Source: a virus
Virus record (IMG/VR): IMGVR_UViG_3300020420_000050
Coordinates: 1-27,921 of that record
DNA: 27,921 bases
Reading direction: 5' to 3' (one strand)
Both the position numbers and the translations under genes were made by a program. Shown one piece after another: positions 5,985 through 27,110 of the stretch. The notes under the pieces were generated by a model. The model worked only from the letters and a program-made list of their open reading frames with translations, was not told the DNA's origin and did not search any database. The stretch's first letter is position 1. Each line of letters begins with the position of its first letter.

Positions 5985-6369
5985 ATATTATCATGGAGAT
6001 ATTGAGGGCAAATTTTGGTTTGCAGTTCAATCAAGTCAAGATGCAGATTTTTTTGGAAGTGAGGGTACTTCATCCCATCTTCACTATTACTTTGATGAAG
6101 ATCATAAGAAAGATGTCCATAAAGGTATTCTTGAGTGTAAAAGGAAACTGCATAAGTATAAAAGACTTTTAGATGAGTTCTTTGAAAATCGAGAGGGATA
6201 TAATAATAAAATGCTTCAAGACTTTTTAGATGAGAAGATGCATCCTCATAAACATACCGAGGATGGTATTAAATATTATCTAGAGTGGTATGCAAGAATG
6301 CATCTTGGCAAAAAGATTTATCTCTGCATACTTGAACACGGAACATGTCAGTTTGAGGCAGAACTGTGA
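5977..6369 (+). CDS. Hypothetical protein, 130 aa, His/Asp-rich
   Basis: The protein starts MGRYYHGDIEGKFWFAVQSS, which I associate with unnamed proteins of marine phages, and has no assigned function. It is rich in His, Tyr, Asp and Glu (SSHLHYYFDEDHKKDVH, HPHKHTEDGIKYYLEWY), which could bind metal, with an intervening charged helix (ECKRKLHKYKRLLDEFFENR). I start at 5977 because GGAGG at 5967-5971 is spaced five bases before it. The end overlaps the methyltransferase gene by four bases. Confidence 0.65.
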   Translation: MGRYYHGDIEGKFWFAVQSSQDADFFGSEGTSSHLHYYFDEDHKKDVHKGILECKRKLHKYKRLLDEFFENREGYNNKMLQDFLDEKMHPHKHTEDGIKYYLEWYARMHLGKKIYLCILEHGTCQFEAEL

Positions 6370-7469
6370 TCAATCATCTTGATTTATGTAGTGGCATTGG
6401 TGGGTTTGCTCTTGGATTTAAATGGGCAAACCTATCCAAACCAATAGCATTTTGTGACTTTGATATACCATGTCAGAAAGTGTTAGCAAAAAATTTTCCA
6501 AACGTACCAATATTTAATGATGTAAAGGAGTTAGCAAGTGACCCAACAAAATTTATTCAACAACCAATCGGAATCCTTAGTGGAGGATACCCATGCCAAC
6601 CATTCAGTACAAGTGGCAAAAGGCTCGGATCAGAAGACCCTCGACACATCTTTCCGTACATCCATGAAATTGTTAAACAAATTAGACCCTCTTACTGTGT
6701 TTTCGAAAACGTATATGGGCATGTCTCCATGGGACTTGACGAGGTACTCTTTGCAATGGAAAACCTTAACTACCAAACGAGGACATTTGTTGTTTCGGCT
6801 AGTAGTATCGGAGCGAGACACAAACGAGACAGAGTGTGGATCGTCTGTAAAAACTTGGGCGACTCCTACTACCATGGATTATCTACCACCAAGATCGGCA
6901 GAGGCAACGAAGAGATTGCAAGAGGGAGCAAGGAAAGGTCGGAAGAGACCAAGCAATCTGAGGGAGCAAGTGGATCCGAAAACAATGGAGATGTATCCAA
7001 CTCCGACAACCAAAGGCTTCGGTCATGCATCGGAGGGACAGACAATGATCTTCAGAAAGAAAGTGGAGAGAGGAGAACTGACAGAGAAAGAGGCTCAATC
7101 TATGATGAATGGGGTAACTTTAAGACCACCGAGGATGGAAGAGTGGAAGTTTCCGACTCCGAATTCTGGTCAAGTGAAACATTCGTACAATGGCAACAAT
7201 CAGTATTACGAAAAGCGATTGAAAGATGGGAGACAGATCGACCTCACAATGAAGATGTATCAAACGGAGGGAGATGCGAGACTCAACTGCGATTGGACAG
7301 AGTGGCTAATGGGGTATCCTATTGGATGGACGAGCCTAGAGGAGTCCCAAGAATCACAACCGAACAACAAAACAGACCTCAAAGACTAAAGATGTTAGGG
7401 AATGCAATCGTTCCTCAACATGCCTACCACATCGGATTAGCAATAAAGGAGGATATTAAAAATGGGTAG
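6366..7469 (+). CDS. DNA (cytosine-5) methyltransferase, 367 aa
   Basis: All catalytic blocks of the C5-methyltransferase family are present: motif I LDLCSGIGGFALGF (residues 5-18, SAM binding), motif IV GGYPCQPFS with the nucleophile Cys77, motif VI FENV (113-116), motif VIII RHKRDRVWIV (151-160), and motifs IX-X RLKMLGNAIVPQHA (340-353). It would transfer a methyl group from SAM to C5 of cytosine in phage DNA, probably for protection against restriction. The target-recognition region (about 161-336) is unusually hydrophilic, Gly/Ser/Asn/Arg/Glu-rich, and is encoded by purine-rich DNA unlike its neighbours. That stretch is also open in a second frame (6538-7389). The gene overlaps both neighbours by 4-8 bases. 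Recognition sequence cannot be predicted. Confidence 0.9.
   Translation: MINHLDLCSGIGGFALGFKWANLSKPIAFCDFDIPCQKVLAKNFPNVPIFNDVKELASDPTKFIQQPIGILSGGYPCQPFSTSGKRLGSEDPRHIFPYIHEIVKQIRPSYCVFENVYGHVSMGLDEVLFAMENLNYQTRTFVVSASSIGARHKRDRVWIVCKNLGDSYYHGLSTTKIGRGNEEIARGSKERSEETKQSEGASGSENNGDVSNSDNQRLRSCIGGTDNDLQKESGERRTDRERGSIYDEWGNFKTTEDGRVEVSDSEFWSSETFVQWQQSVLRKAIERWETDRPHNEDVSNGGRCETQLRLDRVANGVSYWMDEPRGVPRITTEQQNRPQRLKMLGNAIVPQHAYHIGLAIKEDIKNG
6538..7389 (+). CDS. Nested alternate-frame protein inside the methyltransferase gene, 283 aa
   Basis: This frame lies wholly within the methyltransferase gene, in another frame of the same strand, and stays open for 283 codons in AT-rich DNA. It begins with GTG at 6538, preceded by AAAGGAG (6524-6530) at an ideal seven-base spacing. 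The product has segments I recognise from database phage proteins annotated as hypothetical or methylase-associated: YSLQWKTLTTKRGHLLFRL, TWATPTTMDYLPPRSAEA, PKTMEMYPTPTTKG and, near the C terminus, EWLMGYPIGWTSLEES. These sit opposite methyltransferase motif VIII, the target-recognition region and the stretch before motif IX. No catalytic motif is evident, so function is unknown. It could be a real overprinted gene or an echo of constrained methyltransferase codons; the independent start signal favours translation. Confidence 0.5.
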   Translation: MTQQNLFNNQSESLVEDTHANHSVQVAKGSDQKTLDTSFRTSMKLLNKLDPLTVFSKTYMGMSPWDLTRYSLQWKTLTTKRGHLLFRLVVSERDTNETECGSSVKTWATPTTMDYLPPRSAEATKRLQEGARKGRKRPSNLREQVDPKTMEMYPTPTTKGFGHASEGQTMIFRKKVERGELTEKEAQSMMNGVTLRPPRMEEWKFPTPNSGQVKHSYNGNNQYYEKRLKDGRQIDLTMKMYQTEGDARLNCDWTEWLMGYPIGWTSLEESQESQPNNKTDLKD

Positions 7470-9500: not shown

Positions 9501-9665
9501 ATGACAAAATCTCAAAGTAAAAACTCTTTAAGACAATATCTTGAAGATCTAAAAGCAAAGAGAAATGAAAAACCTAAGACTATCCCGATCAAAAAAACTA
9601 AAGAAATGAAAAGGATAGAAAAAGGTCTTAGTGATCTTTTTAATAATACCATAGGAAAAATCTAG
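9501..9665 (+). CDS. Hypothetical basic protein, 54 aa
   Basis: Not recognised. It is very basic and helical: MTKSQSKNSLRQYLEDLKAK, then repeated Lys pairs, ending FNNTIGKI. The frame continues upstream through the promoter to 9456; CGGAGG at 9489-9494, six bases before the ATG at 9501, supports this start. The TAG overlaps the GTG start of the helicase (TAGTG), so it may be coupled to it. Confidence 0.6.
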   Translation: MTKSQSKNSLRQYLEDLKAKRNEKPKTIPIKKTKEMKRIEKGLSDLFNNTIGKI

Positions 9666-11122
9666 TGCATTTCAAATATAAAACAATGCCATATCAACAT
9701 CAAAAAGATGCATTGATGCATAGTTTCGACAAACGGAACTATGCATACTTTATGGAGATGGGATGTGGTAAGTCTAAAGTTCTGCTCGATAACATGGCAT
9801 GGCTAAGACTACAAAAGAAAATTGATACTGCAATCATCGTTGCACCAAAAGGAGTGTATAGAAATTGGGAACTGACAGAGATTCCAAAACATTTTTTAGA
9901 TGAAGTAGAGCATGAAGTATTTACCTGGAGAGCTAATCCAAACAAAACTCAAAGAGATGACTTAGTTAGAGCGACAAAAGATAGATCAAAGTTTAGAATA
10001 CTTCTAATTAATGTTGAAGGATTTGCCACACCAAAAGTAAAAAAATATACTGAAGCTTTTATCAAAGACTCAAACTTTTTATTAGCAGTAGATGAATCAA
10101 CAACGATAAAGAATCATCAAGCTAAAAGAACAAAGGCATTAGTTAATCTTGGGAAACAAGCAAGTTATAAAAGGATATTGACGGGTTCTCCCGTTACTAG
10201 GTCACCAATGGATTTGTTTTCTCAGTGTTTATTTATGAGCCAAGACTTGTTAGGGTTTGATTCTTATTGGTCTTTTCAAGGTCGGTATGCCGTCACTAGA
10301 AGACAGAAGATGGGCGCTCACTCTTTTAACCAGGTTATTGGTTATCGAAACTTGGATGAACTTGCACAAAGATTAAAAACATTCTCGTTTAGAGTTACAA
10401 AAGAAAATGTATTAAAAGATGTACCACCAAAAATTTATACAACTAGATATGTTAACCTATCGACAGAACAGTTAAGTCACTATCAATCAATGAAGAAACA
10501 TGCATTGACAGTGGTCGATGATGAGTTAGTAAGTGCAACTGAAGTCATGACACAATTAATTAAGCTGCAACAATTACTTTGTGGATTTATTGTGACGAAT
10601 GATGGGAAAACAATAGAAGTAAAGAACAACAGAATAAACTGCATGTTGGATGCTATCGAAGAGATGAGTGGCAAAGTTATTATTTGGGCAAGGTTTAGGC
10701 ACGACATTGTTGCTATAACAAATGCTCTTAGAAAAAAATATGGTCATGCATCTACTGTAAATTATTATGGAGATACATCTGAGAAAGATAGACAAGATGC
10801 AATTTTAGGAATTGAGAACGATCCAAGTATAAGATTTTTTGTAGCCAATCCTCAAACGGGAGGCAGAGGTTTAACCTTGGTCAAGGCGACAAATGTAATC
10901 TATTATTCTAATGATTTTGATTTAGAAAAACGGATTCAATCTGAAGATCGTAATCATAGATCGGGTCAAACGAATCAAGTTGTCTATGTTGATTTGATAG
11001 CAAAAGGCACGATTGACGAGTATATTGTGAAGGTTTTACACAATAAAATTGTCTTGGCGGGCAAGGCGCTAAACGAAGAAGCGAAGAAATGGTTACAAAT
11101 TTCTCCAAAAAAAGATGATTAA
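9665..11122 (+). CDS. SNF2-family superfamily 2 helicase, 485 aa
   Basis: The motifs of a compact SNF2/Rad54-type ATPase are in order: Q-like YQHQKDAL (10-17), Walker A MGCGKSK (32-38), motif Ia APKGVYRNW (60-68), motif II VDESTTIKN (142-150, DEST in place of DEAH), motif III LTGSPVTR (172-179), motif V GGRGLTLVKATNVIYY, and motif VI QSEDRNHRSGQ with the arginine finger. It uses ATP to move on double-stranded DNA and is probably a replication or recombination remodeler. It has only the two RecA-like lobes. GTG at 9665 overlaps the previous TAG and has AGGA upstream. An ATG at 9686 is possible, but the earlier start keeps the coupling. Confidence 0.9.
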   Translation: MHFKYKTMPYQHQKDALMHSFDKRNYAYFMEMGCGKSKVLLDNMAWLRLQKKIDTAIIVAPKGVYRNWELTEIPKHFLDEVEHEVFTWRANPNKTQRDDLVRATKDRSKFRILLINVEGFATPKVKKYTEAFIKDSNFLLAVDESTTIKNHQAKRTKALVNLGKQASYKRILTGSPVTRSPMDLFSQCLFMSQDLLGFDSYWSFQGRYAVTRRQKMGAHSFNQVIGYRNLDELAQRLKTFSFRVTKENVLKDVPPKIYTTRYVNLSTEQLSHYQSMKKHALTVVDDELVSATEVMTQLIKLQQLLCGFIVTNDGKTIEVKNNRINCMLDAIEEMSGKVIIWARFRHDIVAITNALRKKYGHASTVNYYGDTSEKDRQDAILGIENDPSIRFFVANPQTGGRGLTLVKATNVIYYSNDFDLEKRIQSEDRNHRSGQTNQVVYVDLIAKGTIDEYIVKVLHNKIVLAGKALNEEAKKWLQISPKKDD

Positions 11123-11152
11123 TTGCTGAAAATTATAACAAAATACTATATA
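11123..11152 (+). promoter_or_regulatory. Weak candidate promoter for the ribbon-helix-helix gene
   Basis: TTGCTG (11123-11128), an 18-bp spacer and TATATA (11147-11152) follow the helicase stop. The match is moderate, and read-through from upstream is also possible. Confidence 0.35.
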
Positions 11153-11187
11153 TGATAAGTGAGAGCAACAAACCACAAGGAGTAACA

Positions 11188-11328
11188 ATGAGAAAATATA
11201 GAACAGTGGCTATCCCAATAGATGTTTTTGAAGAACTCAAACAGATAGCAAACCAAGAGGGAAGATCTTACGCAAGACAGATCTCTTGGATGATTAAAAA
11301 TTATTTTTCAAAAAACATTGACAAGTAA
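11188..11328 (+). CDS. Ribbon-helix-helix (CopG/Arc-type) DNA-binding protein, 46 aa
   Basis: The tiny product begins MRKYRTVAIPIDVFEELKQI, then a Gly/Arg-containing turn and a second helix (YARQISWMIKNYF). A short basic N-terminal strand followed by two helices separated by a GRS-type turn is the ribbon-helix-helix fold, which works as a dimer and reads DNA with the N-terminal strand. AAGGAG precedes the ATG. It is the only recognisable DNA-binding regulator in the window and sits directly before the main replication promoter, which overlaps its 3' end, so autoregulation or control of that promoter is plausible. The link to the repeated palindromes is speculation. Confidence 0.65.
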   Translation: MRKYRTVAIPIDVFEELKQIANQEGRSYARQISWMIKNYFSKNIDK

Positions 11329-11345
11329 TTACTATTTATTATATG
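11318..11345 (+). promoter_or_regulatory. Main promoter for the replication genes
   Basis: A perfect TTGACA (11318-11323), a 16-bp spacer and TATATG (11340-11345) overlap the last codons of the ribbon-helix-helix gene. Transcription would begin near 11352, just ahead of the leader hairpin. Confidence 0.6.
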
Positions 11346-11357
11346 TTTACATATCGC

Positions 11358-11409
11358 ATAAAATCTCACTCGGTAGAATTTCTCCTTATTATTCTACCGA
11401 GGATTTTAT
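11358..11409 (+). promoter_or_regulatory. Long 5'-leader hairpin ahead of the replication operon
   Basis: An eleven-bp stem CTCGGTAGAAT / ATTCTACCGAG (11369-11379 with 11391-11401) is extended by ATAAAATC / GATTTTAT (11358-11365 with 11402-11409) across a three-base bulge. It falls at the very 5' end of the transcript predicted from the promoter at 11318. It lacks a proper T-run, so mRNA stabilisation or processing is more likely than full termination. Confidence 0.6.
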
Positions 11410-11450
11410 AAAAAGCCGAAGGGCATAACTTTAACAAAGGAGGTTCAATT

Positions 11451-12008
11451 ATGAACGAGTTATTTGAAACGATGGTTGCAGATGCGGGTGCGTTTGATAA
11501 TGTTAACGCAAAAAAAGGGAGTGAATTATCCTCTCTAATTCGTAATAGTCAACAACTTTCAAATCAAATCAAAGAAGCCGAACAACACCTTAAAGATCTT
11601 AAGGCAATGAGGCATAAGGTAGATACAGAATCTATTCCTGCAATGATGCAAGAAATGGGTATGGACTCTATTACTGTGGATGGTAATAAAGTTCAGTTAA
11701 AACCTTTTGTCCATGCAAGTATTCCTTCAGATCGAAAAGGAGAGGCATTTGATTGGTTAAGATCAATAGGAGAAAGCGACATTATTAAGAACGATGTCGT
11801 TGTTAGTTTTAGCATGGGAGAAGATAATCTTGCTAAATCTATCGTTGCCGATCTCGAAGAGAAAGGCGTTAATCCAAGTTCAAAGACACATATACATCCA
11901 ATGACTTTGAAATCTTGGTTATCGGATCGTATCAAAGATGGAAAAGATGTAGATCTTGAAATGTTTGGTGCATATGTTGGTACAACTGCTACATTTAGAA
12001 AGGTATAA
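11451..12008 (+). CDS. Hypothetical phage replication-module protein, 185 aa
   Basis: The N-terminal third is a coiled coil (LSSLIRNSQQLSNQIKEAEQ, then HLKDLKAMRHK, about residues 27-60), followed by a compact domain with MMQEMGMDSITVDGNKVQLK (about 65-84) and an alternating strand/helix C terminus. I recognise this only as a kind of protein found beside the SSB-like gene in marine phages, without assigned function. A role in loading or bridging replication proteins is an inference from position. AAAGGAGG before the ATG is among the strongest ribosome binding sites here, suggesting abundant product. The SSB-like gene starts two bases after its stop. Confidence 0.6.
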   Translation: MNELFETMVADAGAFDNVNAKKGSELSSLIRNSQQLSNQIKEAEQHLKDLKAMRHKVDTESIPAMMQEMGMDSITVDGNKVQLKPFVHASIPSDRKGEAFDWLRSIGESDIIKNDVVVSFSMGEDNLAKSIVADLEEKGVNPSSKTHIHPMTLKSWLSDRIKDGKDVDLEMFGAYVGTTATFRKV

Positions 12009-12010
12009 TT

Positions 12011-12814
12011 ATGACAACACAAGTAGTAGAAAAAAAGAAAGCAGGTCTTCCTGCAAATTTGATAAGTGAAATGGCAACCGATTCTGGCTTGGGACTATCT
12101 AACGTAACGGCAGATGATATGCAGATTCCTTTTTTAAGGATTCTACAAGCATTGTCTCCACAGTTAGTTAAAACTAATTCGGATTATATTAAAGGTGCAG
12201 AACAAGGAGATATCTTTAATACTGTTACCCATCAAGTATGGAAAGCAGATGAAGGTATTGTTGTTGTACCATGCTATTTTGAGCAAAAATTACTTGAGTT
12301 CGTACCAAGATCTCAAGGAGGTGGTTTTGTACAAGAGTTACCAAAGAATCATCCAGATGTTTTAAATGTTCAAAGAGACAAAGAAACAAACATGGATATG
12401 TTACCAAGTGGTAATGAACTTGTAAGAACGGGTCAACATTATGTCAAAATTCTTAATGAAGAACTAGGCTTATTAGAACCTGCTATCATCGACATGAAGA
12501 AAACTCAAATTAGAAGATCAAAGATTTGGGTTACACAGATGTCAATGCAAACGATTAAGTTGCAAGATGGTACATCAAAACCTGCTCCTATGTTTGCCAA
12601 TAAATGGAAACTGAAAACAGTAGCCGATGGCAATGACAAAGGATCTTGGTATTCCTGGCAAATAGAAAAAGTTGGGATGGTAGACTCTATGGACATGTAC
12701 AATGAGTGCAAAGAGTTCCATAGCAGTGTTGCATCTGGAGAAGTCAAAGCAACGGCAGTAGCCGATGAAATTGATCAAGCTCCTTCAGTTAATGCAGACG
12801 AAGTGCCGTTCTAA
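12011..12814 (+). CDS. Single-stranded DNA-binding-like protein, 267 aa
   Basis: The protein has an N-terminal helical lead (LPANLISEMATDSGLGLSNV), a central strand-rich domain with many aromatic and basic residues (VWKADEGIVVVPCYFEQKLL; KTQIRRSKIWVTQMSMQTIK; WYSWQIEKVG), and an acidic flexible tail ending NADEVPF. Such a tail with a terminal hydrophobic pair is the hallmark of SSBs, where the last residues (canonically DDDIPF) recruit polymerase, helicase and primase. This and its place just before the primase support an SSB role, although the core fold is not one I can match precisely. Phage recombination or annealing proteins are an alternative. Confidence 0.6.
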   Translation: MTTQVVEKKKAGLPANLISEMATDSGLGLSNVTADDMQIPFLRILQALSPQLVKTNSDYIKGAEQGDIFNTVTHQVWKADEGIVVVPCYFEQKLLEFVPRSQGGGFVQELPKNHPDVLNVQRDKETNMDMLPSGNELVRTGQHYVKILNEELGLLEPAIIDMKKTQIRRSKIWVTQMSMQTIKLQDGTSKPAPMFANKWKLKTVADGNDKGSWYSWQIEKVGMVDSMDMYNECKEFHSSVASGEVKATAVADEIDQAPSVNADEVPF

Positions 12815-12826
12815 CTTTATAAAGAG

Positions 12827-12871
12827 TTTCGGGTGGGGGTTCCTCCATTTTCATTTTACCTCCACCTGAAA
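12827..12871 (+). repeat. 13-bp intergenic RNA hairpin before the primase gene
   Basis: TTTCGGGTGGGGG (12827-12839) pairs with CCTCCACCTGAAA (12859-12871) with two G-U wobbles and a 19-base loop. There is no T-run, and the hairpin lies in the 78-base gap between the SSB-like and primase genes. It may set their expression ratio by RNA processing or partial termination. Confidence 0.6.
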
Positions 12872-12892
12872 GCCATTTGCGAGGAATAATTA

Positions 12893-14422
12893 ATGGACAA
12901 TGGTCAAAGGTTTATGGATGCTTTTGAGGGATTCTCAGAGGCACACGGAGAGACAAAGATTTCCCAGGAAAGAAGACAAGGGAAACAAGCGGCAAATTCA
13001 TATATAAAAAGAACTCCTTTAACATTAGAACTTATTAACGGTCATCTACAAGGTGGACTTGGTGTTGGTGCTATCCCGATTAACGAGGAGAACATGTGTA
13101 AGTTTGGTGCATTGGATATCGACACATATCCTATTGACCATGTTTCATTAGATAAAAAATTAAGAAAACTTAAAATACCATGCATCGTTTGTAGAAGTAA
13201 AAGTGGTGGAGCACATATCTTTTTCTTTCTTTCAGATTGGATGAATGCAGGTGAATTTAGAGATAAAGCATCAGAGATTGCATCAGTTATTGGATTTGGT
13301 AACTGTGAGATATTTCCAAAACAAGAACAAATATTAGTAGAGCGAGGAGATGTAGGTAATTTTATAAACCTACCTTACCATAACAAAGATCAAACCATGA
13401 GGTATGCCTTCAAAGAAGATGGAGAGGTTGCCACATTCGAAGAGTTTTTAGATTTAATAGACAAAAGAAAAGTCAAACCAAATACATTTTTTAAATTACA
13501 AGTAGGAACAAAAAAGACAGAACCATACCCCGAAGGTCCACCTTGTTTAAATGTCATGGCATTAAACGGCATTGGAGAGGGCGCAAGGAACATGTCTTTA
13601 TTTAATTATGGGTCTATGTTTAAGAAAATGGATCCCGATAATTGGAAGGCGCTGCTTGAAAAATTTAACATTGATTATTGTACGAGTCCCGTATCGGCAC
13701 AAGAGATTGTTCAGATACAAGGTCAGTTAGAAAAGAAAGAATATTTTTATACATGTAATCAAGAACCAATTAAATCTCATTGCAATAAATCTTTATGCAA
13801 AAGAAGAAAGTATGGGATTGGTGCAAATATAGATGCAGTAGAGATAACGGGTATATCGATTGTTAAATCAGAACCAAGAGTATTTTTTGCAGACTTAGAT
13901 GGCAGACGATTAGAGTTAACAAGTTTTGATTTACAATCACAATCAAAGTTTCAGATTGCATGTTTAGAACAACAAAATTTTATGCCACCAAAGATAAAAG
14001 AAGGCGATTGGCAGATTCTAATTAATGGGTTATTAGCAGAGGCGAATGAAATAGAAGTGCCAGAGGAACTTACATACAAAGGACATTTTAATCAACTACT
14101 TGAATCTTTTTGTTATGGCAGAGTACAAGCACAATCGGCAGAAGAACTTTTAATTGGTAAGCCATGGATAATGAACGGATTTGTATATTTTAAAATTGAT
14201 TCTTTACTTGAATTTTTTAGACAAAAAGGATTTACACAATATTCAAAAGGTCAAATACAAGAGAGAATAAAAGAAATAAATCATGGGGACAAATGTAATG
14301 AGCCTAGAAATTTTAAAACAACGGATGGTAAACAAAAATCAATTCGTGTTTGGTGGGTTCCAGAAGTTAAAGAAGAAGTTGAAATACCAAAAGTAGAGTT
14401 TGAAGAGGAGCCTCCGTTTTGA
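12893..14422 (+). CDS. Archaeo-eukaryotic-type primase (primase-polymerase), 509 aa
   Basis: The N-terminal domain carries the AEP signature as in TOTE-type and phage primases: the metal-binding pair ALDIDTY (Asp75, Asp77), SGGAHIFFF (Ser104 to His108), EIFPKQ (139-144) and GNFINLPYH (155-163). It is followed by a PriCT-like helical part (GEGARNMSLFNYGSMFKKMD, about 228-247) and a Cys/His cluster (Cys288, His296, Cys297, Cys302; perhaps with Cys218) that would bind zinc or an iron-sulfur cluster. It should make primers for PolA. The C terminus ends EEEPPF, resembling the SSB-like protein's tail. GAGGAATAATTA precedes the ATG. No helicase motifs are present, so unwinding must come from the separate helicases. 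Confidence 0.85.
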   Translation: MDNGQRFMDAFEGFSEAHGETKISQERRQGKQAANSYIKRTPLTLELINGHLQGGLGVGAIPINEENMCKFGALDIDTYPIDHVSLDKKLRKLKIPCIVCRSKSGGAHIFFFLSDWMNAGEFRDKASEIASVIGFGNCEIFPKQEQILVERGDVGNFINLPYHNKDQTMRYAFKEDGEVATFEEFLDLIDKRKVKPNTFFKLQVGTKKTEPYPEGPPCLNVMALNGIGEGARNMSLFNYGSMFKKMDPDNWKALLEKFNIDYCTSPVSAQEIVQIQGQLEKKEYFYTCNQEPIKSHCNKSLCKRRKYGIGANIDAVEITGISIVKSEPRVFFADLDGRRLELTSFDLQSQSKFQIACLEQQNFMPPKIKEGDWQILINGLLAEANEIEVPEELTYKGHFNQLLESFCYGRVQAQSAEELLIGKPWIMNGFVYFKIDSLLEFFRQKGFTQYSKGQIQERIKEINHGDKCNEPRNFKTTDGKQKSIRVWWVPEVKEEVEIPKVEFEEEPPF

Positions 14423-14679
14423 TAGAAGTCATCGTATCTTTTTGTATCGTTTTAGTAGAAGAGGCAAGACACAAGGGTGGAGAGTCTATTTGTAACTTTT
14501 ATAACCCTGGCATTGTGTTTGAAAATAGAAAGCAATGTATTAAAGAAAAAAAATTAATAGAGGACTATGTTGTAGAGGAGTTCTGGAAGATACGTCCAGA
14601 GGCAGTAAGAATATTTGCGAAAGGAGTATGCACACATGGCAAACGCACAGGAAGAAATAAGGGCAGAGACAGAGAATGA
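14419..14679 (+). CDS. Small Cys protein with hydrophobic N terminus, 86 aa
   Basis: The frame starts with TTG, sharing TTGA with the primase stop, and GAGGAG lies eight bases upstream. The N terminus (MIEVIVSFCIVLVEEA) is hydrophobic, followed by a soluble part with Cys at about 25, 40 and 71 (ENRKQCIKEKK, FAKGVCTHGKRTG). The pattern matches the proteins at 7959 and 18606 (minus): hydrophobic start, Cys before a helix, Cys near a basic tail. Function unknown, perhaps membrane or periplasm associated. Its 3' end overlaps the helicase gene by 44 bases and contains that gene's AAAGGAG. Confidence 0.55.
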   Translation: MIEVIVSFCIVLVEEARHKGGESICNFYNPGIVFENRKQCIKEKKLIEDYVVEEFWKIRPEAVRIFAKGVCTHGKRTGRNKGRDRE

Positions 14680-16201
14680 AACTGCTATATTCGGGCCACC
14701 AGGCACGGGTAAAACAACGACACTTTTAAATATCATGGAGGAGGCTATTGCTGATGGTGTCATGCCAGAGAGAATAGCCTTTTTATCTTTTACAAGGAAA
14801 GCGGCACAAGAGGCAATTGATAGAGCTTGTTTAAAATTTAATTTAGATGAAAAATGTTTTCCTCACTTTAGAACACTACATTCTCTTGCTTTTCGTTGGG
14901 TGGGCATGAAATCAGAAGATGTAATGAAAGCTGCCGACATGAGATTTTTAGCAAAAAAATTAGGTATAGTTTTTAAAAAAGAAGGTAAAATTAATGTAGA
15001 GGATGGAGATCTTTTTAGACCTGGGACAAGTGAAGGAGATAGATACTTTCACATACTAGCGATGTCTAAACTAAAAGAAAGAGATTACATGAAAGAATTT
15101 GATATGTTTGGGGATCTAACATTGGACAGAGCATATATGCCCGTGGTTGCAGAGGCATACGAGAGTTATAAAAAAACTCATAAAAAAATAGACTTTACAG
15201 ACATGCTTTTAGAATTTTTAAAACAACAAACGGGCCCAGAGTTAGACTTATTAATTATAGATGAGGCACAAGATTTAGTCCCAATACAATGGAGAATGGT
15301 CAAGGAATGTTTGTTACCTAATTCTAAAAAAGCATATTATGCTGGGGATGACGATCAATGTATATTTAATTTTACGGGTGCAAATGTAAATTATTTTTTG
15401 AACTGTGCTAACAATCACATTGTTTTAGATAAATCATTTAGAGTTCCATTTACAGTTTATCAAATTGCAAAAAATATAATAGACAAAGTTCATACTAGAA
15501 AAATAAAAAAATACAAACCAAAAGAAGAAGAGGGTTTGGTTTCTTACTATTACGATGTCATGGACATAAATTTTAATGAAGGAGAATGGTACATATTAGC
15601 CAGAACAAACAGAATATTGTTTGATGTTTCTGAGAGACTTAAAAAAGAAGGATATGTCTTTTGGAAAGAGGGCGCTGGTTGGTCAATATCAGAAGAGGTA
15701 GTTAGCAGTATAGAGGGGTGGTTAAAAATATGCAAAGATCAAAGCTTAACTGTGCATCAGTGGGTGCAGTTTTCAAAAAGAACAAAAAAGGGAATGATAG
15801 AACATGGTGGAAAAAGAAAGATAGAACAACTAGATCCAGGCAATACATATACGTTAGACGATTTATTGAACAGCGATTTGGGTTCTTATCTAAATTTAGA
15901 CAAAAAAATGATGTGGTACGATGTTTTAAATATAACGGAGGCTCAAAGAATATATATCATTGCGGCACGAAGGAGGGGAGAATTTATTCTAACAAAAAAA
16001 CCTAGAATAAGAATATCAACCATACATAAAGCAAAGGGTGGAGAGGCAGATAATGTTGCATTAATTCTTGACTGCCCTAAAATAATAAAGGAAAAAGGAG
16101 ATGAAGACAGCGAACATAGAATCTTCTATGTTGGAGCAACTCGTGCTCGTAAAACTCTTCATATCGTTGAACCTAAAGATAAGAATGGATATGAATTATG
16201 A
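14636..16201 (+). CDS. UvrD/Rep-like superfamily 1 DNA helicase, 521 aa
   Basis: Motifs in order are Walker A GPPGTGKTTT (20-29), Ia FLSFTRKAAQEA (49-60), Ib HFRTLHSLAF, motif II LIIDEAQD (206-213), motif III AGDDDQCIFNFTGA (236-249), IV/IVa region FRVPFTVYQIA, then motif V STIHKAKGGEADNV and motif VI YVGATRARKTLHI near the C terminus. This is a 3'-5' SF1A helicase, shorter than cellular UvrD because the 1B/2B insertions are reduced. It is the likely replication-fork or repair helicase paired with PolA. I start at 14636 because AAAGGAG (14620-14626) is nine bases upstream. The preceding frame to 14615 lacks a site. Confidence 0.9.
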   Translation: MANAQEEIRAETENETAIFGPPGTGKTTTLLNIMEEAIADGVMPERIAFLSFTRKAAQEAIDRACLKFNLDEKCFPHFRTLHSLAFRWVGMKSEDVMKAADMRFLAKKLGIVFKKEGKINVEDGDLFRPGTSEGDRYFHILAMSKLKERDYMKEFDMFGDLTLDRAYMPVVAEAYESYKKTHKKIDFTDMLLEFLKQQTGPELDLLIIDEAQDLVPIQWRMVKECLLPNSKKAYYAGDDDQCIFNFTGANVNYFLNCANNHIVLDKSFRVPFTVYQIAKNIIDKVHTRKIKKYKPKEEEGLVSYYYDVMDINFNEGEWYILARTNRILFDVSERLKKEGYVFWKEGAGWSISEEVVSSIEGWLKICKDQSLTVHQWVQFSKRTKKGMIEHGGKRKIEQLDPGNTYTLDDLLNSDLGSYLNLDKKMMWYDVLNITEAQRIYIIAARRRGEFILTKKPRIRISTIHKAKGGEADNVALILDCPKIIKEKGDEDSEHRIFYVGATRARKTLHIVEPKDKNGYEL

Positions 16202-16482
16202 AAAAAGACAGAGACTATTTTTTAGCAGAAGCTCAAAAATTAATTAAAGGTCCCAGAGCAAAAGATTATGGGCCAGTAAAAAAGAATCATCAAAGAATAG
16301 CAGATATATGGACTATTCTTTTGGATAAAAAATTAAAAGAGCCAATTACACCAGAGGAAGTTGTAGCTTGTATGGTAGGTGTTAAAACTGCTAGACTAGC
16401 AGAGGACATAAACAAAGATGATTCTTGGATAGATATTATAGGATACGCTGCACTAGGAGGCGAAATAATTAATGACAAGTGA
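16198..16482 (+). CDS. DUF6378-like protein, 94 aa
   Basis: The protein shows the DUF6378 pattern: KLIKGPRAKDYGPVKKNHQR (about 14-33), WTILLDKKLKEPITPEEVVA, then VGVKTARLAEDINKDDSWID and IIGYAALGGEI. The all-helical layout with Glu, Asp and Lys pairs recalls the MazG-like nucleotide pyrophosphohydrolase superfamily, so a nucleotide-pool role next to the polymerase is possible but unproven. It overlaps the helicase by four bases and the polymerase by eleven, so all three are translationally coupled. Confidence 0.65.
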   Translation: MKKDRDYFLAEAQKLIKGPRAKDYGPVKKNHQRIADIWTILLDKKLKEPITPEEVVACMVGVKTARLAEDINKDDSWIDIIGYAALGGEIINDK

Positions 16483-18388
16483 ACAATATCACTTAAACGG
16501 ATTTAATGTTATTGATCAAGACATAAAAGATTTATCTTGGGGTAACATAGATTTTGACTGGTCTCCTCCAAGTGACTTTCCAGATTTAACAAAAGCATCA
16601 AGAATATCCGTAGACTTGGAAACAAGAGATCCTAACTTAATAAAATTAGGGCCTGGATGGTGTAGAAAAGATGGATACATTATAGGAATAGCAGTTGCTG
16701 CAGGCGATTTTCAAGGTTATTATCCCATACGACATGCTCAAGGTAATATAGATTCAAAGTTGGTGTTTAACTGGTTTAGAAAACAAATGGACACACCACA
16801 TATACCAAAAATATTTCATAACTCTATGTATGATGTTGGATGGTTAAGAGCAGAGGGAGTAGAGGTCAAAGGTCCCATATTAGATACAATGATCATGGCT
16901 CCACTGATTGATGAAAATAGAAGGTTCTATAATTTAAATAGTCTCGCTATTGATTATTTAAAAGAGTTTAAAAACGAAAAAACTTTGAGACATGCTGCAA
17001 GTGAGTTTGGAGTAGATCCAAAATCAGAGATGTATAAATTACCTGCTAAATATGTGGGTGCGTATGCAGAACAAGATGCTGCTGTTACTTTAAAATTATA
17101 TGATCACTTTGTAACTCTTTTAGATAAAGAAGAATGTACAAGTATATTTGAATTAGAAACATCTTTACTGCCCGTTATCCTAGATATGAAAACAAAAGGG
17201 GTACGAGTTGATTTGGATCAAGCAGAAAAAACTAGAAAACAAATGGCAGTCCAAGAAAAGAAGTTACTTGATGAGATAGTCAAAGAGACTGGTGTTGCGG
17301 TTGAACCTTGGGTCAGCACATCTATAGCACAAGTCTTTGATTTTTTTGGACTTGAGTATTCTCGCACAAAAAAGAGCAGGTCTCCCTCTTTCACAAAACA
17401 ATTTCTCTCTCATCATCCTCATCCAATAGCAAAAAAGATTGTTAAAATAAGAGAGCTTAACAAAGCGAATACTACGTTCGTTGAAACAATTCTTAATCAT
17501 GCTCATAATGGTCGTATACATTGTGACTTTCATCCTCTTCGTACTGACGATGGTGGAACTGTAACTGGTCGTTTCAGTTCTAGTAATCCTAATCTACAAC
17601 AAATACCATCTAGAGACTTAGAAATCAAGAAGGCTATTAGAGGGTTGTTTATTCCAGAGGATGGATGTAAGTGGGGTTCTTTTGATTATGCTTCACAAGA
17701 GCCAAGATGGTTGGCGCATTATTGTGCTAAACCAATGGATGGATATGTGCATCCTTTGATCGAGGAAGTGGTAACCATGTATAAGGAAGGAAAAGCAGAC
17801 TTTCATCAAATGGTTGCAGATATGGCAAGTATAAGTAGAAAAGAGGCTAAAACTGTAAACCTTGGAATTATGTATGGCATGGGTCGTAAAAAACTAGCAG
17901 ACACTTTAGCTATAACGGAGGAAGAGGCGAAGGAATTATTAGAAACATATAATAAAGAAGTTCCATTTGTAAAAGACTTGGCAACAAGAGTTTCAAATTA
18001 TGCATCTAACCATGGAATTATAAGAACTCAATTAGGAAGAAAATGTCGTTTTGAATTATACGAACCAAGAGGTTTTACTGCCAAAAGACCTTTGCCACTG
18101 AAAGATGCAGTGAAAGAATATCAGAATGTTCAAAGAGCATATACATACAAGGCGCTCAATAGATTGATTCAAGGGTCAAGTGCAGACCAAACTAAAAAGG
18201 CAATGGTCGATTGTTATGCAGCAGGTTTATGTCCGATGTTAACAGTTCACGATGAACTTTGTTTTAATATTGAAAATCAAGAGCAAGTGGACAAAATAAA
18301 AGAGATAATGACTACTTGTGTCCCCGAAGTAAGAATACCCTTTGAAGTTGACGCTGAACTAGGCGATAATTGGGGTCAAATCAGTTAA
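16472..18388 (+). CDS. polA: Family A DNA polymerase with 3'-5' exonuclease, 638 aa
   Basis: The DEDDy exonuclease domain shows VDLE (Asp48, Glu50), HNSMYD (116-121, Asp121) and YAEQD (Tyr198, Asp202). The polymerase domain has the TGRFSSSNPNLQQIP block (365-379), motif A FDYASQEPR (Asp405, Glu410), motif B RKEAKTVNLGIMYG (456-469) and motif C VHDE (592-595). There is no 5'-3' exonuclease domain, as usual for phage replicases. Leu464 occupies the place of E. coli Phe762 (codon CTT at 17861). In marine virus studies Leu there has been linked to slower, more faithful synthesis and temperate-like lifestyles. It is the last gene of the rightward replication unit, overlapping the DUF6378-like gene by 11 bases. 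Confidence 0.95.
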   Translation: MTSEQYHLNGFNVIDQDIKDLSWGNIDFDWSPPSDFPDLTKASRISVDLETRDPNLIKLGPGWCRKDGYIIGIAVAAGDFQGYYPIRHAQGNIDSKLVFNWFRKQMDTPHIPKIFHNSMYDVGWLRAEGVEVKGPILDTMIMAPLIDENRRFYNLNSLAIDYLKEFKNEKTLRHAASEFGVDPKSEMYKLPAKYVGAYAEQDAAVTLKLYDHFVTLLDKEECTSIFELETSLLPVILDMKTKGVRVDLDQAEKTRKQMAVQEKKLLDEIVKETGVAVEPWVSTSIAQVFDFFGLEYSRTKKSRSPSFTKQFLSHHPHPIAKKIVKIRELNKANTTFVETILNHAHNGRIHCDFHPLRTDDGGTVTGRFSSSNPNLQQIPSRDLEIKKAIRGLFIPEDGCKWGSFDYASQEPRWLAHYCAKPMDGYVHPLIEEVVTMYKEGKADFHQMVADMASISRKEAKTVNLGIMYGMGRKKLADTLAITEEEAKELLETYNKEVPFVKDLATRVSNYASNHGIIRTQLGRKCRFELYEPRGFTAKRPLPLKDAVKEYQNVQRAYTYKALNRLIQGSSADQTKKAMVDCYAAGLCPMLTVHDELCFNIENQEQVDKIKEIMTTCVPEVRIPFEVDAELGDNWGQIS

Positions 18389-24528: not shown

Positions 24529-26199
24529 TTAATTTATTTTTTTTATTTTTATATCACTAGTATCTGTTTTCTTTTCCTCTTTAGTGTCAGTTTCTTTTTG
24601 TATGTTTTGAGGTATCTTTCCAGTCAAAACACCTCGTATTATTGCTTGTGTATCAAAGTTTGTAGCTTGATTTTTAAAAGGACTAGCATTGTATATGCCC
24701 ATCACTTTTTTTTGTATTGTATTAACTTTTTGAGAATCAGAAGATTTAATAAAATTGGCATACTCTGCCTCACTCATATAATCTTTAGGATTAGCTGCTA
24801 TTGTGGTGGTTAAAGTTTGTCCAAACTTATTGTTATTCTTACCAGCGCTATCAATCATTTTGTTTATAACTGAAGTAACTCTGTTTAATCTGTTTTCCTC
24901 TTTCTTAAAGATTCTTTCTTTTGCAGATTCTTCTGCTTGAATAGCTAATTTTGTGGCTGTTAATTGTATTTGTCTTTTTTCTTTTCTATCGTCATCCAGT
25001 GCATCACCATACATTTTAAAACCTTGAGCAAGTCCTCTTGTTATATTTGTCAATGCATCTGGACTGTCTCCAGCAGCGATTAATAATCCAGTCATAATAA
25101 GGTTAAAATCTTTATCTGATTTAATACTTCCTTTATCTCCAACTGTTGATTCTAATATATTAGAATATAAAGCTTTTCTATCGGTTAAACTTAATCCCTC
25201 TAAGTTAATTCCCAAAACATTACTTAAATTATCTGTATTTAAATTTTTATTGTTAGCATCTAAAAAATTATTAGAAAAAGAATGATTCTCTGCTGTAGCA
25301 TTTGAACCTTCTTTTTTAGCCTCATCTATTTTTTTAGTGTTTTTATTTTTTGTATTATTAATCACAACTTCTGTAGATTGTTTATCTTCTGACAAATCCT
25401 TTTCATTGTGTGATGCCTCTCCAACTATTGATGCCTCTCCAAGAAGATTTTCAGGTCTTAATTTAGGAACTTCTGGAAACTCCTCACCCTCACCTTTTAA
25501 TTGAGGACCACCAACAGCAGAACTAAATTCTTCAGCTTGTATCTTATCTTTTTTTTCTTGTTCGTATGCTTTTCTTCTAGATTCAAGTTTATCAATTACA
25601 TCACCTGGCATTTTTTTAAAAAAATCTAGTGTTTTATTTATTTTAGGTGTAATAAAATTTGTAAAGTTTTTAATGTCTTCGCTTGTTCTTTTCAAGAGCT
25701 GCGATCCTCTTGCCGATACATCACTAAAATAACCTGGTACATTTTGTTGCTCATCTCCCATTTTAAAAGCTCCAACATCTCCAGCAGGTTTTGCAGGCAT
25801 AATATCTATACCTTGAGTGGCTGCTATTCTATTTTTTAAAACATCTTTTCCTTCTGAAACTCTTGCTCTTTGTATTTCATTTTTTGTTCTAGCTTTTTCA
25901 TCGTCAAGAGCGTCTATATTAATTTGACGAATATCTTGAAACTTGTTGAGAGGATTAAGAATATTTAATATTGAACTCCCAATTCCTGTATCTCCAGTAG
26001 GAATAAAACTAGTGTTTGGTATTTGAGTAGAAAATTGAGAAGGATAATTTAGTCGAAACTTAGTGCCTGGTTGTGTTGGATTACCAACTACGTTAACACC
26101 ACCCACTCTAAACCTTTTCATAAGCTCTGGACCACTAGCCATGATACCAGTAGCGCCACCACCTTTTTTACGAAACATCTTTCTATTGTATACGGTCAT
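24529..26199 (-). CDS. Virion-associated protein, 556 aa
   Basis: The basic Gly-rich start (MTVYNRKMFRKKGGGATGIM) resembles openings of structural proteins in marine phages. A Pro/Asn-rich part follows, then charged coiled-coil stretches (about 205-225), an Asn/Lys/Ser low-complexity linker (about 275-320), and a conserved-looking helical domain with LIAAGDSPDALTNITRGLAQ (about 372-391) followed by a long charged helix. The Lys-rich tail ends KIKKIN. It is probably an internal or tail-tube-associated component. It sits between the Gln/Ala-rich protein and the giant protein, with a one-base overlap upstream and a nine-base gap downstream. Confidence 0.55.
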   Translation of the reverse strand: MTVYNRKMFRKKGGGATGIMASGPELMKRFRVGGVNVVGNPTQPGTKFRLNYPSQFSTQIPNTSFIPTGDTGIGSSILNILNPLNKFQDIRQINIDALDDEKARTKNEIQRARVSEGKDVLKNRIAATQGIDIMPAKPAGDVGAFKMGDEQQNVPGYFSDVSARGSQLLKRTSEDIKNFTNFITPKINKTLDFFKKMPGDVIDKLESRRKAYEQEKKDKIQAEEFSSAVGGPQLKGEGEEFPEVPKLRPENLLGEASIVGEASHNEKDLSEDKQSTEVVINNTKNKNTKKIDEAKKEGSNATAENHSFSNNFLDANNKNLNTDNLSNVLGINLEGLSLTDRKALYSNILESTVGDKGSIKSDKDFNLIMTGLLIAAGDSPDALTNITRGLAQGFKMYGDALDDDRKEKRQIQLTATKLAIQAEESAKERIFKKEENRLNRVTSVINKMIDSAGKNNNKFGQTLTTTIAANPKDYMSEAEYANFIKSSDSQKVNTIQKKVMGIYNASPFKNQATNFDTQAIIRGVLTGKIPQNIQKETDTKEEKKTDTSDIKIKKIN

Positions 26200-27110
26200 T
26201 ATGTAGCTCTTGGTTGAAAGTTAAATAAGTTTCCAAATCCACCTGCACTTCCCGCGGCACCGAGTCCAGCAATACCAAGTCCTAACATTTGTGATGTTCT
26301 ACTTGGTCCAGGGGTAGTGGTCGTTGAATAAGTTTGTTGCAATGCTGGAACACCTCTAAAGATGTCAGACATAAAACCAATCTGTTGATAAGGTAATGCT
26401 TGTTCTGCAAGTGTGTTTGCTCTTGCAACATCAAGTGCTCTTTGATCTTGTTGTTGTTGTAGTCCACCAATCCCTAACAATGTGTTAATATCTTGTACAC
26501 CCATTTGTTGTCCAAGTTGTCCAAGACCAGCTTGTGATACACCCAACTGACCTGCTAACTGTGCTTGTCTTAATTGTTGATTCGCTTGTTGTTGTGCTAA
26601 GTTTTGTGCTTGTGCAAAACCTTGTGATCTTAACTGTGCTCCAGTTCTTGCTTGTTGATCCATTGTATCAGCTGCAATCTGTCCTTGCAGTACGGCTTGT
26701 CTAGAGCCACCAAATGCACCAGATCCTACTGCACTTGCTTGTGCTTGATTTTGTTGCTGTCTTCCTTTATCTGCAATGTCTGCTTGAGTTCTTGCAATAA
26801 CATCTTCCGTGTAAGGATCCATGAATTTTTCATAACTTGTAGGATCAAAACTTGCACCTTGTGCGCCTGCAATACCTTGTTTAACAGCTTCACTTCCTTG
26901 TTGTAAAAAAGGTTGAAAAGCACCTACACCACTAAAAGCATTAAGTATAGCTTGTTTTTGTCCTTGTGATAAATCTGCTAACTCTTGTTCAGCAAATGGC
27001 ATTTGTGTGCCTTCGCCTGTTAAGGCTTTAGCACTTGCGAATAAATCTGCTAAAAACTGCTCTTGAAACGGAGCCAGTCTGACGGTTTGTTCTACACTTT
27101 GTTGAGCCAT
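26199..27110 (-). CDS. Gln/Ala-rich internal virion protein, 303 aa
   Basis: The protein is extremely rich in Gln, Ala and Gly (QQQNQAQASAVGSGAFGGSR; AQAQNLAQQQANQQLRQAQL) with a mid segment YEKFMDPYTEDVIARTQADI. This MDPY-T-x-V-I-x-x-T-x-A-D-I, then AGAFGGSRQA pattern is common in phage internal or head-tail-associated proteins. The Gly-rich C terminus (GLGIAGLGAAGSAGGFG) is hydrophobic and may insert into membrane during DNA ejection. It is co-transcribed with both neighbours (TAATG at each end). A structural role is likely; the exact one is unknown. Confidence 0.6.
   Translation of the reverse strand: MAQQSVEQTVRLAPFQEQFLADLFASAKALTGEGTQMPFAEQELADLSQGQKQAILNAFSGVGAFQPFLQQGSEAVKQGIAGAQGASFDPTSYEKFMDPYTEDVIARTQADIADKGRQQQNQAQASAVGSGAFGGSRQAVLQGQIAADTMDQQARTGAQLRSQGFAQAQNLAQQQANQQLRQAQLAGQLGVSQAGLGQLGQQMGVQDINTLLGIGGLQQQQDQRALDVARANTLAEQALPYQQIGFMSDIFRGVPALQQTYSTTTTPGPSRTSQMLGLGIAGLGAAGSAGGFGNLFNFQPRAT

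Follow-up and report, generated by a model that had tools for sequence, protein, structure and literature searches.

We have found that a viral gene for a C5-cytosine methyltransferase contains, in its +1 frame, a second gene that is almost certainly real and ancient, and that the two very probably form an overlapping-gene alpha/beta methyltransferase, in which the long frame provides catalysis (alpha) and the nested frame provides motif IX and target recognition (beta). The function of the two chains as subunits is inferred, since there are no biochemical or expression data. The pair lies in a DNA of 27,921 nucleotides (positions 1 to 27,921 of the IMG/VR record IMGVR_UViG_3300020420_000050), which is called the window below, and its features are collected in Table 1.

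Table 1. Positions of the features of the overlapping gene pair in the window.
Feature	Position	Strand	Evidence
Alpha chain, C5-cytosine methyltransferase, motifs I-VIII and X, no recognisable motif IX	6366..7469	+	PF00145 4.9e-37, phrog_363 9.3e-58; M.HhaI match residues 4-162
Alpha catalytic part, motifs I-VIII, codons 1-164	6366..6857	+	Alpha-frame dN/dS 0.15-0.24, sliding windows
Alpha linker (roughly codons 165-305), translated, with its own frame near-neutral	6858..7280	+	Sliding windows: alpha dN/dS about 0.5-2, nested 0.03-0.14
Alpha motif X (RLKMLGNAIVPQ...), alpha-frame constraint back	7374..7445	+	dN/dS 0.31 then 0.12, windows over codons 301-360; R337, R340, G345, N346 invariant
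Shine-Dalgarno AAAGGAG of the nested gene, 7-nt spacer	6524..6530	+	AGGAG at identical spacing in 62/62 close relatives
Putative beta chain, nested +1 frame, GTG start, 283 aa, phrog_1008 ('DNA methyltransferase')	6538..7389	+	phrog_1008 1.6e-23; dN/dS 0.15, 95% CI 0.11-0.20
Beta conserved beta-hairpin segment (YSLQWKTLTTKRGHLLFRLVV), over alpha motifs VI-VIII	6748..6810	+	Model strands 71-78, 84-91; conserved in 102-sequence alignment
Beta [WYFL]xTP repeat 1 (WATPT)	6856..6870	+	Sequence
Beta [WYFL]xTP repeat 2 (YPTPT)	6994..7008	+	Sequence
Beta [WYFL]xTP repeat 3 (FPTPN)	7150..7164	+	Sequence
Beta motif-IX-like element RLNCDWTEWLMGYPIGW; alpha frame of the same DNA is LDRVANGVSYWMDEP	7279..7329	+	PSSM from nested sequences

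Two open frames on one strand

The original prediction, made from the letters alone, had pointed out that one strand is open in two frames over 6538-7389, and that the nested frame has its own AAAGGAG, a seven-base spacer and a GTG start. Both ORFs are present as described, one of 367 codons and the other of 283, and the spacer is found at 6531-6537, directly before the GTG at 6538. When the methyltransferase was recoded by synonymous-codon shuffling, the nested frame was open in none of 20,000 shuffles (at least 2 stops in each, on average 8.7). Out-of-frame (+1 or +2) open runs in 11 further long genes of the window reach 99 codons at most.

The alpha frame shows the catalytic motifs I-VIII (PCQ, ENV, RxR), and its alignment with M.HhaI covers residues 4-162, while the Pfam match extends to residue 361. 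Motif X (GNxV) is also present as RLKMLGNAIVPQ and is constrained. A search of the alpha frame for motif IX, with a PSSM derived from the nested proteins, has found none (best score about -17). Motif IX and the target recognition domain (TRD) are not recognisable within the alpha chain, and its codons 165-305 are near-neutral. The nested peptides named earlier (WATPTT, YPTPTT and EWLMGYPIGW) are all present and conserved. They had been placed opposite motif VIII, the recognition region and the block before motif IX; the peptides stand, but the last placement does not, as the alpha frame has no recognisable motif IX and EWLMGYPIGW, which is itself the motif-IX-like element of the nested frame, lies over the block just before motif X.

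Some further features of the locus can be described here. The G+C content is 45.5% in the overlap versus 34.2% for the window, which is perhaps a cost of two-frame coding or a sign of transfer. The methyltransferase starts at 6366 with GTG in the window, and ATG stands at the same position in 62/62 aligned relatives. Helicases, a primase and a DNA polymerase are encoded nearby (9665-18388, + strand), as is a DNA ejection protein-like product (26199-27110, - strand); the surroundings of the locus are a phage replication module.

Conservation and spread of the overlap

Among the IMG/VR loci found with the nested protein, the methyltransferase is present in 80/80 and the relative frame is unchanged. 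In the more diverged IMG/VR relatives, identity is higher for the nested protein than for the methyltransferase, e.g., 82% versus 64%. All 62 full-length relatives keep an ATG or GTG at the nested start, and all 62 keep AGGAG at equal spacing. When an alignment served as query, diverse viral contigs and genomes from more than ten bacterial phyla turned out to carry the pair. Of the 239 nested matches in this search, 237 are in the +1 frame relative to the overlapping methyltransferase; of the other two, one is a same-frame case and one has a nested frame that is broken in two.

An unbiased reverse check is given by the search with the methyltransferase alignment alone, where the nested frame was not used for fetching the loci. 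The nested family lies in the +1 frame at 80/80 of the loci so obtained. Motif IV can be read in 74 of them, and at least 67 of these 74 have an alpha frame that continues without a stop as far as motif X. Actually, the nested protein has never been found apart from this methyltransferase, neither in the 239 nested matches nor in the 80 methyltransferase-only loci. Judged from these sequences, the overlap looks obligate in a large methyltransferase lineage, as far as it is sampled.

The original prediction had asked whether homologs also sit inside methyltransferase genes in the same frame, and both searches answer this positively. It would have been refuted by methyltransferase homologs with frequent stops in the nested frame, and these were not met in the 80 reverse-check loci. 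Taken with the purifying selection described below, the 80/80 co-occurrence and the start and Shine-Dalgarno sequence kept in 62/62 bear out its claim of a conserved overprinted gene.

The number of [WYFL]xTP repeats varies among loci, being mostly 1-5 and most commonly 3. We have also observed second copies of the N-terminal part of the methyltransferase near the first copy, at L016:4552-4893 and at L255 and L257:673-1248.

Selection in the two frames

We have classed the substitutions in 31 disjoint close pairs by their effect in each frame, in an OLGenie-like way and with changes to stop excluded. Over the entire overlap, the 31 pairs give a nested dN/dS of 0.15 (95% CI 0.11-0.20). For the part of the overlap over alpha motifs IV-VIII, dN/dS is 0.21 in alpha and 0.45 in the nested frame (CI 0.28-0.79); for the variable region, it is 0.10 in the nested frame (0.07-0.14) and 0.73-0.81 in alpha, with a CI that includes 1. 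Both frames of the overlap are under purifying selection, jointly over motifs IV-VIII, and the rest is constrained in the nested frame. The two controls, namely the +2 frame and the part upstream of the overlap, show no such constraint.

In windows of 40 codons, constraint on the alpha frame lasts until about codon 165, gives way to near-neutral evolution between about 165 and 305, and returns at motif X (about 305-360). Constraint on the nested frame spans about alpha codons 85 to 320, and sliding windows over alpha codons 81-160 give nested values of 0.20-0.32. For 45 pairs from other lineages, dN/dS is 0.22 (alpha) and 0.46 (nested) in the N-terminal part, and 1.42 (alpha) and 0.36 (nested) in the C-terminal part. 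Overall, selection passes from the alpha to the nested frame along the overlap, and this is repeated in independent lineages.

Clear purifying selection on the large chain is lacking between motifs VIII and X, be it in the 31 close pairs, in the windows or in the 45 other-lineage pairs. Because dN/dS in the alpha frame is near-neutral there, we infer that this segment is a translated by-product with no role as a recognition domain. This fits the earlier proposal that overprinting would explain the odd recognition region, as the methyltransferase frame is close to neutral there. The overlapping-gene selection test, which had been suggested as a check, has likewise come out in favour of the nested gene, first in the 31 pairs and again in the 45.

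It can be argued that the codon choice of alpha merely leaves the +1 frame open and that no protein is made from it. The first ~60 nested residues do resemble the +1 reading of a canonical methyltransferase, that of Streptococcus phage MM1 (nested HMM, E=0.0018), and similarity in these residues alone is therefore weak evidence. The selection test already refutes such an artefact, however, and the shuffles (0/20,000), the conservation of start and Shine-Dalgarno sequence and the 80/80 co-occurrence speak against it as well, so that it can practically be dismissed.

The nested protein and its motif-IX-like element

The nested product matches phrog_1008 (E=1.6e-23) with its residues 13-268 against positions 40-282 of the 329 in the profile, and it has no match in Pfam, NCBIfam or PDB sequences. 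Its segment LNPxWVEWLMGYPxGW resembles motif IX, which in M.HhaI reads LHPRECARVMGYPDSY. Using 76 different xLNPxWVEWLMGxPxGW segments of nested proteins, we have built a PSSM whose best window is motif IX in 65/66 canonical phage C5 methyltransferases and in 22/22 Dcm-type enzymes; in the C-terminal segment of M.HhaI (taken from an alignment), it picks KLHPRECARVMGYPDSY. Absolute scores of this PSSM are low. A PSSM built from canonical motif IX finds the right place in 97/102, and it does not score the window's own nested copy above shuffles. No match between the nested family and canonical methyltransferases was obtained at the profile-profile level (E=0.91). Since the absolute scores are low and these last two tests are negative, the identity of the element as motif IX is inferred mainly from its position and a weak sequence pattern.

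The AlphaFold2 model of the nested protein is poor (pLDDT 67.6, pTM 0.34), and a Foldseek search with it returned only noise and no fold match.

Separately, a product of Streptococcus phage MM1 (L237:1655-2080) is annotated as 'C5 methyltransferase beta subunit'. We have considered it as a precedent and rejected it, as the gene in which it is nested encodes a complete canonical methyltransferase with its own motif IX; the call is probably spurious.

Single-chain, split and fused relatives

In gp71 of Mycobacterium phage WillSterrel, a single frame encodes motifs I-VIII, LLPTPxxxD repeats, LNPAFPEWMMGWPTGWVT and then motif X, and this plan is common to 23 single-frame proteins of suitable length (that of WillSterrel included). 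The nested profile aligns with this mycobacteriophage family between motifs VIII and X (hhalign E=9e-11). By this sequence comparison, these enzymes contain the C-terminal half of the nested module as an in-frame fusion at the place where target recognition and motif IX belong. Because of this in-frame fusion, we favour the option of a methyltransferase partner, one of the two that the original prediction had named; the other, an anti-restriction factor, is not supported by anything that would not hold for every phage methyltransferase. One point against our explanation is that the fusion spans only part of the beta module, with the N-terminal half staying in +1. In an AlphaFold2 model of the single-chain form, the core and the C-terminal element are of high confidence, with M.HhaI as the PDB match (E=1.6e-13), and the repeat region is unmodelled.

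Split forms also exist, namely gp81 plus gp80 in mycobacteriophage LHTSCC and gp54 plus gp53 in Gordonia phage Upyo, where the second gene encodes the repeats, an MMG element and motif X. In the catalytic-domain tree, the overlapping clade has the single-chain and split forms of actinophages as its sister group, which does not settle which form is older. In single-chain phages, the +1 frame across the catalytic part can still be read as the N-terminal half of the nested module. This suggests that the fused form arose from the overlapping form by a frame change, though the tree does not decide this.

Natural fusions were also observed. The alpha N-terminus is joined to the nested C-terminus in L207 and L232, and in L198, L212, L197 and L199 the nested protein runs on in frame into motif X, giving small chains like that of M.AquI; the latter four are either real variants or single-base errors. 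At L217:1144-2643, one frame holds methyltransferase motifs I-II, an HNH-like insert (CEIC...HHHDYNRP...CQKCHHQWH) and then a nested-family protein, which is possibly a homing-endonuclease insertion or a rearrangement.

Such fusions, and the mycobacteriophage enzymes with motifs I-VIII, repeats, a motif-IX-like element and X in one frame, could also be taken to support programmed frameshifting, where the ribosome would pass from alpha to the nested frame after motif VIII and return before motif X, so that a single full-length methyltransferase and no separate nested protein is made. This would require two shifts in opposite directions. Moreover, the nested frame has its own conserved Shine-Dalgarno sequence and start, alpha is open to motif X in most loci, and the nested constraint over alpha codons 81-160, well upstream of the end of motif VIII, would be unneeded if the shift took place after it. 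We therefore regard frameshifting as very unlikely.

The nested protein might also be no subunit at all, e.g., an anti-restriction factor or a regulator that was overprinted by chance. It has no solved relative and no fold match, and its family is otherwise without an assigned mechanism, which leaves room for an independent function. Against this, it was never found without this methyltransferase in either search, its constraint fills exactly the stretch that is unconstrained in alpha, its C-terminal half is fused in frame at the position of the TRD and motif IX, and alpha lacks a recognisable motif IX. An independent function thus retains only a small chance of being right.

Comparison with known two-chain methyltransferases

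The small-chain gene of M.EcoHK31I is likewise contained, out of frame, within the gene for its large chain. This two-polypeptide C5 methyltransferase, which we take as the precedent, has motifs I-VIII and X in the large chain, motif IX in the small chain and a predicted TRD in the large chain (PMC3404938). By analogy, the window's pair may share this division of the motifs, though its element is only motif-IX-like, as assigned by position and the nested-derived PSSM. The two systems differ in that M.EcoHK31I is a characterised restriction-modification enzyme (YGGCCR), and in that its predicted TRD is in the large chain, whereas in the window the large chain evolves almost neutrally from VIII to X, and the repeats and the motif-IX-like element are in the small chain. 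M.AquI is a natural C5 methyltransferase split between motif VIII and the end, where the small chain comprises half of the variable region, IX and X (PMC3404938). In the window, motif X stays in alpha; LHTSCC gp80 and Upyo gp53 are more like M.AquI than the window's pair is. WillSterrel gp71 and its relatives belong to the same catalytic family, and their LPTP repeats and [LM]MGxPxGW element are homologous to the nested C-terminal part, but this part is in one frame between VIII and X, with only the N-terminal part remaining in +1.

The same overlapping pair is found in Paenibacillus larvae phage Diva (gp49/gp50, annotated 'DNA-cytosine methyltransferase' and 'g49 internal gene') and in E. coli phage K1H (ORF29/ORF28, 'putative C-specific methylase' and 'putative Mte8-like protein'). 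Both are only distantly related in sequence to the window's pair (the Diva nested product is 28% identical), and their records state no mechanism. Among the open-access papers searched, none was found to describe an overlapping phage methyltransferase pair. What is new here is the evidence for three points: an obligate overlap across the lineage as sampled, near-neutral evolution of the variable region in the large chain, and the presence of part of the module within a single chain in related enzymes.

Proposed mechanism and significance

We propose that the long frame would yield the alpha chain, with the catalytic domain (AdoMet binding, motifs I-VIII) and motif X, in which the ~140 residues between VIII and X would be carried along as a by-product of the other frame. 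From its own Shine-Dalgarno sequence, the nested frame would yield beta, composed of an N-terminal segment, the [WYFL]xTP repeats and the motif-IX-like element. Beta would then act as a small target-recognition domain and supplier of motif IX. The two starts on one mRNA may couple the synthesis of the chains, which are inferred to assemble into one heterodimeric enzyme. Recognition of bases by the beta repeats is likewise an inference, and it is speculative that the repeat number may set the target site. A likely use of orphan phage methyltransferases is protection from host restriction, and the same role, protecting phage DNA, is inferred for this enzyme.

Gene callers keep one frame, the other frame or neither of this pair, and mis-annotation is the usual result. 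In a Salmonella e15-like phage (L241:1394-2389), the nested frame is the only one of the two to be annotated ('hypothetical protein'), the catalytic one being missed; in a prophage of E. coli cS100a (L459:1386-2555), both frames are intact and RefSeq gives two incomplete DNA cytosine methyltransferase pseudogene fragments. If only the annotated gene were cloned, the resulting enzyme would probably be inactive or lack specificity.

Overall, the pair offers a natural split two-frame methyltransferase for studies of specificity, and a clear natural example of selection switching between overlapping frames. We are inclined to believe, with some reservation, that this very widespread phage enzyme family has catalysis and target recognition written in two frames of one DNA. 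Specificity would then evolve in the nested frame, the catalytic chain would contain ~140 residues that are neutral but still translated, and the 'variable region' throughout this lineage of phage and prophage methyltransferases would be an out-of-frame shadow of the recognition domain.
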